Shown one piece after another: positions 24,475 to 29,327 of a DNA stretch of 64,000 bases (position 1 is its first letter; each line of letters opens with the position of its first letter). The stretch comes from Thermaceae bacterium (GTDB lineage Bacteria; Deinococcota; Deinococci; Deinococcales; Marinithermaceae), in NCBI GenBank assembly GCA_026984675.1, contig JALSRQ010000060.1, positions 1-64,000 on the forward strand. The letters are read 5' to 3'. The translations under genes and the position numbers were made by a program. Below the pieces are notes generated by a model, which ran no database searches, was not told the origin of the DNA, and worked only from the letters and a program-made list of their open reading frames with translations.

Positions 24475-26512
<2,038 letters not shown>

Positions 26513-26578
26513 GGCAAAATCCTATGCCGTACCCCCGGGCGCGGGGGCGGGGAGCCGGCGGTCGCCGCCTCGAGGCAG

Positions 26579-26612
26579 GAGCCCCGCGCCCGGGGCGACG
26601 GGCGCGGGGCTC
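26579..26612 (-). terminator. 13-bp GC stem-loop downstream of cytochrome P460 gene
   Basis: GAGCCCCGCGCCC-GGGGCGAC-GGGCGCGGGGCTC; no clear U-run. Confidence 0.5.
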
Positions 26613-26616
26613 GCGG

Positions 26617-27087
26617 CTACTTGATCGAGGTGCTGAACACGTAGTCCTGGGCCTTGGCCCGGCCGTGGCAGGCGATGCAGCTTGCCACCTTACCGGAGGC
26701 CTGCACGCGGCCGTCGGGGCCGTACTTGGCCCAGAACCAGTCGCCGTGCTCGGGGTCGTAGCCCTTGACCTTCTTCATCACCGTGATCGCGCCCAGCTTC
26801 TTGCCGTCCGGGGCGTAGTTCTCCTTGACGATGACGGCGCCGTCGGGGTAGCCGCCGGCCTTGGCCTGGATCGCGTCGTAGGCGATGTTGTTGACGAAGG
26901 TGCGGAGCACCGCGCCGTGGGGCTCGGTCCCCTTATAGAAGCCCGGGGGCTTGCCGGGGATGTAGTGCCAGTTGGTGGCGTAGCGGCTTTCGCTGAGCGT
27001 TTTCCAAAGATCCTCGGCCATGCCGCCGGCGGCGAAGGCGAGGAGCCCAAGGGCGAGCAGCCCGACCCAGAGATACCATCGCTTCAT
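26617..27087 (-). CDS. Cytochrome P460 family haem protein (exported)
   Basis: Signal peptide, ENYAPDGKKLGAITVMKKVKGYDPEHGDWFWAKYGPDG, CIACH haem motif. Confidence 0.88.
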   Translation of the reverse strand: MKRWYLWVGLLALGLLAFAAGGMAEDLWKTLSESRYATNWHYIPGKPPGFYKGTEPHGAVLRTFVNNIAYDAIQAKAGGYPDGAVIVKENYAPDGKKLGAITVMKKVKGYDPEHGDWFWAKYGPDGRVQASGKVASCIACHGRAKAQDYVFSTSIK

Positions 27088-27142: not shown

Positions 27143-27751
27143 TCAATACAGGCCGGGTTTCCCCGGGGCCGCCCGCCGGCGGTCGAGCTCGCGGACCCGA
27201 TCCATGGCGTTGAGGAGGACCTCGAGGGGGTCGTAGCGGCCCTCCAGGAAGGCCTCCCGCACCGGCTCGGGCAGGAAGACCGGCGCCGTCCGGCCGGCGT
27301 AGCGGAGCTCGCCGGCGGCGAGGTCGAGGACGAGCTCGGTCTCCGGCCGCTCCATCACCGTCGCCATCAGGTGGGCGACGTCCTCGGGGGCGGCGCGGAC
27401 GCAGACCAGCCCGATCTGGGTGGCGTTGCCGAAGAAGATCTCGGCGAACGACTCGCCGACGATCGCCCGGAACCCCGCCCGCCGGATCGCCTGGGGGGCG
27501 TGCTCGCGGGAGGAGCCGGTGCCGAACCCGGCGTTCACGATCAGGATCTCGGCCCCCCGGTAGCGGGGGTCGTTCAGGGGGTGGTCCTTGGGCCGGCCTT
27601 CTTCGTCGTAGCGCTCGTCGTAGAACAGGGCGTCCCCCAGCCCGTCGAAGGTGACCGTCTTCAGGAAACGGGCGGGCACGATGCGGTCGGTGTCGATGTC
27701 GTCGCCGGGGAGCGGCAGCCCCCGGCCGCGGATCTCCTTAATCGGCGGCAT
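27143..27751 (-). CDS. leuD: 3-isopropylmalate dehydratase small subunit
   Basis: [41 protein letters not shown]...[36 protein letters not shown]. Confidence 0.96.
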
Positions 27752-29165
27752 GGGCCCCTCCCAAGTCGAAGACCTCGCGGGGATCGGCGATGCGGCCGGC
27801 CACCGCGCTCGCCGCCACGGTGAGGGGGCTGGCCAGCACGGTGCGGCCGGTGGGGCTCCCCTGGCGGCCCTTGTAGTTGCGGTTGGAGGAGCTCACCGCC
27901 AGCTCGTCGCCGACCAACCGGTCGGGGTTCATCGCCAGGCACATCGAGCAGCCCGGCGCCCGCCACTCGAACCCCGCCTGGCGGAAGACCTCGGCGATCC
28001 CCTCCTCCTCGGCGGCCCGGGCCACCGCCTGGCTGCCCGGCACCGCCAGGGCCCGCACCCCCTTCTTGACCCGGCGCCCCTTCAGGTGGCGGGCCACCAG
28101 GCGGAGGTCGGAGAGCCGCCCGTTGGTGCAGCTGCCCAGGAAGGCGACGTCGACCTTGACCTCGGAGAGCCGCTGGCCGGGGCGGAGCTTCATGTAGCGG
28201 AGGGCGTCCTCGATCTGGGGCCGCTCCTCCTCGGGGAACGCGGCGGGGTCGGGCACCCGGCCGTCGACCGGGGCCGACTGGCCGGGGTGGACCCCCCAGG
28301 TCACGGTGGGGGCGATCGCCTCGCCCCGGATCTCGACCCGGTCGTCGTAGCTGGCGTCGGGGTCGGAGGCCAGGGCCCTCCAGGCGGCCACTGCCCGGTC
28401 CCAGTCGGCCCCCTGGGGGGCGTAGCGACGGCCCTCCAGGTAGGCGAAGGTGGTGGCGTCGGGGTTCATGTAGCCCACGCGGGCCCCGCCCTCCACCGAC
28501 ATGTTGGCGATGGTCATCCGTTCCTCCATGCTCATCCGGTCGATCACCTCGCCGGCGTACTCGTAGGCGTAGCCGATCCCGCCCTTGACCCCCAGGGTGC
28601 GGATGATGTGGAGGATCACGTCCTTGGCGGTGACCCCCGGCGCCAGGCGGCCGTTGACCTCGATCCGGCGGACCTTGAGCCGGTTCATCGCCACCGTCTG
28701 GGTGGCCAGGACGTCGCGCACCTGGGTGGTGCCGATGCCGAAGGCGAGGGCCCCGAAGGCGCCGTGGGTGGAGGTGTGGGAGTCGCCGCAGGCGATGGTG
28801 AAGCCGGGCTGGGTGAGGCCGAGCTCGGGGCCGATCACGTGCACGATCCCCTGCCGGCCGCTATCGAGGTCGAAGAAGGCGAGGCCGTGCTCGGCGACGT
28901 TTTTGCGCAGGGCCTCGAGCATCGCCTGGGCCAGCGGGTCCTCGAAGGGCTCGCGGCGGTCGTGGGTGGGGACGATGTGGTCCACGGTGGCGAAGGTGCG
29001 GTGGGGGAAGGCCACCTTGAGCCCCCGTTCCTTGAGCATGGCGAAGGCCTGGGGGCTGGTGACCTCGTGGATCAGGTGGAGGTCGATGAAGAGCTGGGTG
29101 CGCCCGTCGGGGAGCTCGCGCACCGCGTGGGCCTCCCACACCTTCTGGTAGAGCGTCTTTCCCAT
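27738..29165 (-). CDS. leuC: 3-isopropylmalate dehydratase large subunit
   Basis: [41 protein letters not shown]...[23 protein letters not shown]. Confidence 0.97.
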
Positions 29166-29176
29166 GAACCCCTCCT

Positions 29177-29205
29177 AAAAAACCCGCCCCCGGCCCGGGG
29201 GCGGG
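29177..29205 (-). terminator. Intrinsic terminator (attenuator) in leuC leader
   Basis: Minus strand CCCGCCCCC-GGGCC-GGGGGCGGG-TTTTTT directly before the leuC SD and ATG. Confidence 0.85.
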
Positions 29206-29221
29206 ACGCGAAGGCGGGCCC

Positions 29222-29266
29222 CTACCCCCGGCGGGGGGCTAGTTTCCGGCCCTCGGTCGCGACCAT
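29222..29266 (-). CDS. Candidate leucine attenuator leader peptide [14 protein letters not shown]
   Basis: ATG GTC GCG ACC GAG GGC CGG AAA CTA GCC CCC CGC CGG GGG TAG; about 10 nt after -10 TATACT; upstream of terminator and leuC. Confidence 0.6.
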
Positions 29267-29276
29267 CTTGGCGCCG

Positions 29277-29305
29277 AGTATACGGGCCGGCGGCCGCGTT
29301 GACAA
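29277..29305 (-). promoter_or_regulatory. Promoter of leu leader transcript
   Basis: Minus strand TTGTCA (29305-29300) - 17 nt - TATACT (29282-29277). Confidence 0.65.
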
Positions 29306-29327
29306 GGGGTGGCCCGCTGGCTAGACT
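29299..29327 (+). promoter_or_regulatory. Promoter of tRNA-Pro
   Basis: TTGACA (29299-29304) - 17 nt - TAGACT (29322-29327). Confidence 0.85.

Follow-up and report, generated by a model that had tools for sequence, protein, structure and literature searches.

The nearest known system to the leader described here is leuL of Salmonella and Escherichia coli. There, CUA serves as the leucine control codon, and alternative hairpins and a terminator lie ahead of the leucine genes. The enterobacterial leader is the longer of the two, carries a Shine-Dalgarno (SD) sequence, and includes a run of CUA codons. Changing three CUA codons to CUG in Salmonella leu reduced sensitivity (Carter et al. 1986, as reported in PMC1183508).

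Two other groups of leaders are comparable in part. Mycobacteria have attenuators in which a leaderless short open reading frame (ORF) reports one amino acid through its elongation rate; these are polycysteine ORFs with runs of Cys codons, and they regulate translation of the downstream gene (Canestrari et al. 2020, cited in PMC9031893). Actinobacterial leuA, leuS, and ilvB leaders also contain short ORFs with Leu codons, some with terminators, but the LEU element of leuA is a pseudoknot over the leuA SD with a run of Leu codons, for which attenuation is considered doubtful (PMC1262725).

Here, we follow up the leuCD leader found in a 64-kb stretch of DNA from a Thermaceae bacterium, hereafter called the window. 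The leader is of a known mechanism type, but it differs from leuL in having one or two CTA codons within a near-leaderless ORF of 14 to 17 codons, a predicted 5' untranslated region (UTR) of 0 to 3 nt, an unrelated sequence, and no match to an Rfam family. Unlike the mycobacterial attenuators, it relies on one rare Leu codon and includes an intrinsic terminator, and the pseudoknot of the LEU element was not seen in this lineage. In an Rfam search of the window, only tRNA reached the gathering score, no Leu leader appeared even at an E value of 10, and no T-box riboswitch model matched; five relatives likewise gave no leader-family match. The literature searched, older subscription-only articles about the leu cluster of Thermus aside, contained no report of leu attenuation in this lineage.

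RESULTS

The leuC leader in the window

The original prediction, made from the letters of the sequence, described a compact minus-strand attenuator: a TATACT -10 element, a 10-nt gap, a 14-codon ORF with CTA as its lone Leu codon, and a terminator with a run of T residues ahead of the leuC SD. All of these elements were there, exact to the base. The features are as follows.

29277 to 29305, minus strand: leuC promoter, with -35 TTGTCA at 29305-29300, a 17-bp spacer, and -10 TATACT at 29282-29277
29267 to 29269, minus strand: predicted 5' UTR, AAG, from a putative transcription start placed 7 nt past the -10 element (near-leaderless)
29222 to 29266, minus strand: leader mini-ORF of 14 codons plus TAG, conserved in relatives, with its ATG 10 nt after TATACT
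29240 to 29242, minus strand: control codon CTA, codon 9 and the only Leu codon, assigned by leader comparison
29230 to 29239, minus strand: segment 1, GCCCCCCGCC, which pairs with segment 2 and would be under the ribosome when CTA is in the A site
29218 to 29229, minus strand: segment 2, GGGGGTAGGGGC, the antiterminator strand, assigned by 2:3 duplex energy and covariation
29183 to 29205, minus strand: intrinsic terminator, CCCGCCCCCGGGCCGGGGGCGGG, segments 3 and 4, followed by T6 at 29182-29177
27738 to 29165, minus strand: leuC, 3-isopropylmalate dehydratase large subunit, with its ATG at 29165 and the SD AGGAGG immediately upstream
27143 to 27751, minus strand: leuD, small subunit, in the same direction as leuC and overlapping its end
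24982 to 26055, minus strand: leuB-like gene, 3-isopropylmalate dehydrogenase (named from sequence only), downstream in the same direction

Because transcription is predicted to start about 3 nt before the mini-ORF, a ribosome would load at or near the 5' end of the RNA. Scans of a 430-bp region returned two promoter matches, versus 0.0 +/- 0.1 in shuffled sequences, and one terminator match, versus 0.2 +/- 0.4; the terminator stem has 10 G-C pairs. When the whole 64 kb was scanned, no second arrangement of a -10 element, a close ATG, an ORF of 6 to 32 codons, and a terminator was detected.

Conservation in relatives

Regions upstream of leuC were collected from three families, namely, f1 (the family of the window), f4 (which includes Meiothermus granaticius, L062), and f5 (Trueperaceae). 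An in-frame CTA in a short ORF just past a -10-like hexamer was present in 74 of 76 leuC leaders. That count comes from a run in which ORFs were picked without reference to CTA, and bias of the ORF picker is thus ruled out as the source of the codon. The two exceptions were L063, an apparently rearranged and longer leader in which CTG replaces CTA, and L075, which has no ATG at the expected place and no ORF. All 19 chosen lineage representatives carry CTA. About ten further leaders with CTA came from a second set: nine of f5 and one of family f2 (L251: leader MFTPSSALLLSNLG), which has two consecutive CTA codons and a terminator. In that set, no such leader was seen at the three loci of f3 or at two of f5. 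Class- and phylum-level searches gave no families past f1 to f5, and Deinococcaceae were apparently not among them.

The start codon of the mini-ORF is conserved in relatives, as are its stop and the promoter. In f1, CTA sits at codon 9 and TATACT is kept in 11 of 12 leaders each, the TATACT count including that of the window. A Thermus-like genus (g13, name inferred) has CTA at codons 7 and 9, and in Meiothermus-like leaders two CTA codons are often adjacent, as codons 9 and 10. The terminator was found in the window and in most relatives, with a minority in which it went unrecognized by the criteria used. Thus, the expectations that CTA, the start codon, and the terminator would recur in relatives were all borne out. 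Moreover, CTA is retained while the peptide, the stop codon, the hairpin sequence, and the spacing all change.

In the original prediction, a single rare codon on a near-leaderless mini-ORF would be a minimal variant of leader-peptide attenuation. There is indeed one CTA here, but the form is not unique. The majority of relatives carry CTA twice, and in L009, L017, L019, L024, L042, L056, L062, and L064, CTA is the sole Leu codon, as in the window. Because these belong to several separate groups, the single-codon form is recurrent rather than an oddity of the window.

CTA is rare in genes and preferred in leaders

CTA had been expected to be rare, and counting over the 64-kb window agreed: 58 predicted genes (G+C 72%) contain 24 CTA codons among 2336 for Leu, a share of 1.03%, and the frequency of CTA among all codons there is close to 1.3 per 1000. 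In leuC genes taken from relatives (36 genes), the share was 1.5%. Among leuC leaders, by comparison, 67 distinct sequences have CTA at 110 of their 177 Leu codons (62%). An AT effect does not account for the excess: of the other four-fold codons in those leaders, just 9% have A in third position, a figure that rules out general drift toward A-ending codons. Among the genome's tRNA genes with a long arm, a single gene was found for each of tRNA-Leu UAA, UAG, CAA, GAG, and CAG. CTA is the cognate codon of tRNA-Leu(UAG), so the reader of the control codon is encoded in the genome to which the window belongs.

Trueperaceae leaders offer an internal control. In 21 of them, a second leucine lies at position -11 relative to the control leucine and is encoded by CTG in 12, TTG in 4, CTC in 2, CTT in 2, and TTA in 1, whereas the control leucine is CTA in 21 of 21. 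The tally used leaders aligned on CTA, and the presence of CTA had been established beforehand without that alignment. To judge from these comparisons, the contrast between the two leucines is the cleanest evidence for selection on the CTA codon itself.

Alternative pairing and covariation

The prediction that segment 2 can pair either with segment 1 or with the 5' arm of the terminator was reproduced by folding of the window leader. The 1:2 hairpin is worth about -12.7 kcal/mol, the 2:3 duplex -21.8 kcal/mol, and the terminator hairpin -22.6 kcal/mol. Free of ribosomes, the window RNA adopts a fold that includes the terminator (-53.3), and the terminator remains when a ribosome is placed at the stop codon (-22.7). 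With a ribosome on CTA and only the 5' arm of the terminator made, the antiterminator comes out as the most stable structure (-22 to -23 with a footprint of 11 to 13 nt). Once the RNA is complete, antiterminator and terminator are nearly equal, at about -31 kcal/mol and depending on the assumed footprint. The modeling is therefore consistent with the predicted effect of a ribosome at CTA in that the antiterminator would fold first; as the finished RNA is close to balance, antitermination would have to be kinetic.

Taken leader by leader, segment 2 matched the terminator stem alone only moderately better than dinucleotide shuffles did (mean z -1.0; 17 of 62 leaders at p <= 0.05). Such short, G+C-rich stretches would be expected to give a modest signal. 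A lineage-swap test was therefore added, using 11 representatives picked by hand, one per leader type. The cognate 2:3 duplexes totaled -187.7 kcal/mol, versus -146.9 +/- 8.6 when partners were swapped between lineages (permutation p ~5e-5). The 11 lineages differ considerably in their pairing sequence (GGGGGUAG/CUGCCCCC, GCCCGG/CCGGGC, GGGGUC/GACCCC, and CUCCGuGGGC/GCCCCGGAG types). Antiterminator strand and terminator have thus changed together from lineage to lineage, as covariation.

Trueperaceae leaders encode a conserved peptide motif

In 21 of 25 Trueperaceae leaders (L065-L079 and L256-L266), the peptide contains RRRLxxI, with the Leu exactly 11 codons before CTA. Among the 21, Arg occupies -14 in 21, -13 in 18, and -12 in 20, Leu occupies -11 in 21, and -8 is mostly Ile. 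Six Arg codons, including AGA and AGG, and five Leu codons are used in the motif. Use of all six Arg codons indicates that the peptide itself is under selection. Arrest peptides are recognized by conserved residues at a fixed distance from the stall codon, and that is the arrangement found in these leaders. By sequence, then, RRRLxxI looks like an arrest-peptide motif.

Similar leaders precede ilvB, leuS, and trpE

In the genome of the window, ilvB follows a near-leaderless leader, MPTRNLASLALGLIIAAPGAGTPGA, with CTA GGG CTA ATT ATT and a terminator (L169). Similar leaders precede ilvB in all ten other genomes examined; as a set (L161-L171), they are near-leaderless ORFs rich in CTA, GTA, and ATT, mostly with terminators. 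Leaders of 8 to 15 codons, such as MRRARLTP, that contain CTA once or twice and come with a terminator precede leuS in seven of ten genomes (L202, L204-L206, and L208-L210); in the ten genomes examined, the leuS leader was absent from the window's own genus. Finally, trpE leaders (L189-L193 and L195-L197) contain two or three Trp codons and terminators, and mostly end WWPG or WWWPG at the stop. All three kinds are near-leaderless and carry matching codons, for Leu, Ile, and Val before ilvB, for Leu before leuS, and for Trp before trpE. The likeness of these leaders suggests a regulon of ribosome-mediated attenuators using CTA, of which the leuC leader would be one member and, by this comparison, part of a lineage-wide practice.

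DISCUSSION

We conclude that the leuCD leader is very probably a compact ribosome-mediated transcription attenuator with CTA as its control codon, a reading that the comparative evidence supports. When charged tRNA-Leu(UAG) is ample, the ribosome would pass CTA, reach the stop codon, and cover segment 2, such that the 3:4 terminator forms and transcription stops ahead of leuC. Under a shortage of charged tRNA-Leu(UAG), the ribosome would wait with CTA in the A site and segment 1 covered. Segment 2 could then bind segment 3 as soon as the latter is made, permitting read-through into leuCD. In RNA that carries no ribosome, 1:2 and 3:4 would both pair, and transcription would terminate.

CTA might instead be conserved for its shape. 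The codon is the reverse complement of a TAG stop, and in f1 and Thermus-like leaders, the two can pair in the 1:2 hairpin (e.g., CTA-G-CCCCC/GGGGG-TAG), as though the leader were a structural terminator that involves no leucine sensing by decoding. We think this highly improbable. CTA is kept, always in frame, in leaders that stop with TGA or TAA (L044, L056, L062, L064, and most f5 leaders); pairing with TAG thus fails to explain it and is ruled out as the sole cause of its conservation. Moreover, the ilvB and leuS leaders are differently structured and use CTA too, and the second invariant leucine of Trueperaceae takes five codons while the control leucine takes CTA alone.

Nor is the mini-ORF likely to have its effect on the translation of leuC, whether by reinitiation or by coupling, instead of on termination. 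The stop codon is only 56 nt from leuC in the window, and leader genes are enriched near structural genes in Deinococcus-Thermus (PMC4833913), both of which would suit such a role. A strong terminator with T6 separates the ORF from leuC, however, and leuC carries its own SD, AGGAGG. Furthermore, the distance from stop to leuC extends from 56 to more than 100 nt among relatives, whereas the peak reported in PMC4833913 is at 10-11 bp. Translational control of leuC is therefore very unlikely. Hardly credible at all is a functional small protein followed by a constitutive terminator: conservation of the start, stop, and promoter of the ORF would be expected of one, but between the genera of f1 and of f4, conservation of the peptide is limited to the Leu that CTA encodes, and ORFs ahead of leuS are as short as eight codons.

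Several points count against attenuation at a CTA codon, our preferred reading: the near balance of the two folds in the window, the modest signal of single leaders, the relatives in which no terminator was recognized, and the exceptions L063, L075, and family f3. By theory, moreover, one control codon should give weak sensitivity (PMC1183508). A more novel possibility, tentative and less likely than not, is that leucine is sensed at one rare codon with help, in Trueperaceae, from the nascent chain, the RRRLxxI motif lying 8 to 14 residues before CTA, and that the 14-codon leaders of the window's family are stripped-down forms in which the codon acts alone. Residues at that distance from a stall codon lie in the ribosome exit tunnel. 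From there, the Trueperaceae motif could slow the ribosome at CTA, giving a hybrid of an arrest peptide and a codon-based attenuator. Such help cannot apply to the window leader, as the nascent chain at CTA is just eight residues. Should the motif indeed work from within the tunnel, codon sensing with assistance from the peptide would represent a new design, and our literature search found nothing relevant on a leucine leader combining an arrest peptide with a rare codon.

Leucine control by one and the same rare codon, CUA, is thus seen in enterobacteria and, on this evidence, in a whole lineage far removed from them. The shared choice fits the idea that control codons are picked for the isoacceptor whose charging falls first. 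Moreover, as natural leaders here have one control codon and almost no 5' UTR, the minimum for attenuation could be tested directly in Thermus.

Two minor observations concern the surroundings of the leader. A divergent plus-strand promoter, TTGACA-17-TAGACT (window 29277-29327), faces tRNA-Pro(GGG), and its -35 TTGACA overlaps the leuC -35 TTGTCA within the 7-bp TTGACAA at 29299-29305. In addition, the interval between leuD and leuB (26024-27087) holds two ORFs in the same direction, a heme-protein-like ORF of 156 amino acids and an alkyltransferase-like ORF of 162 amino acids, both named by sequence impression.
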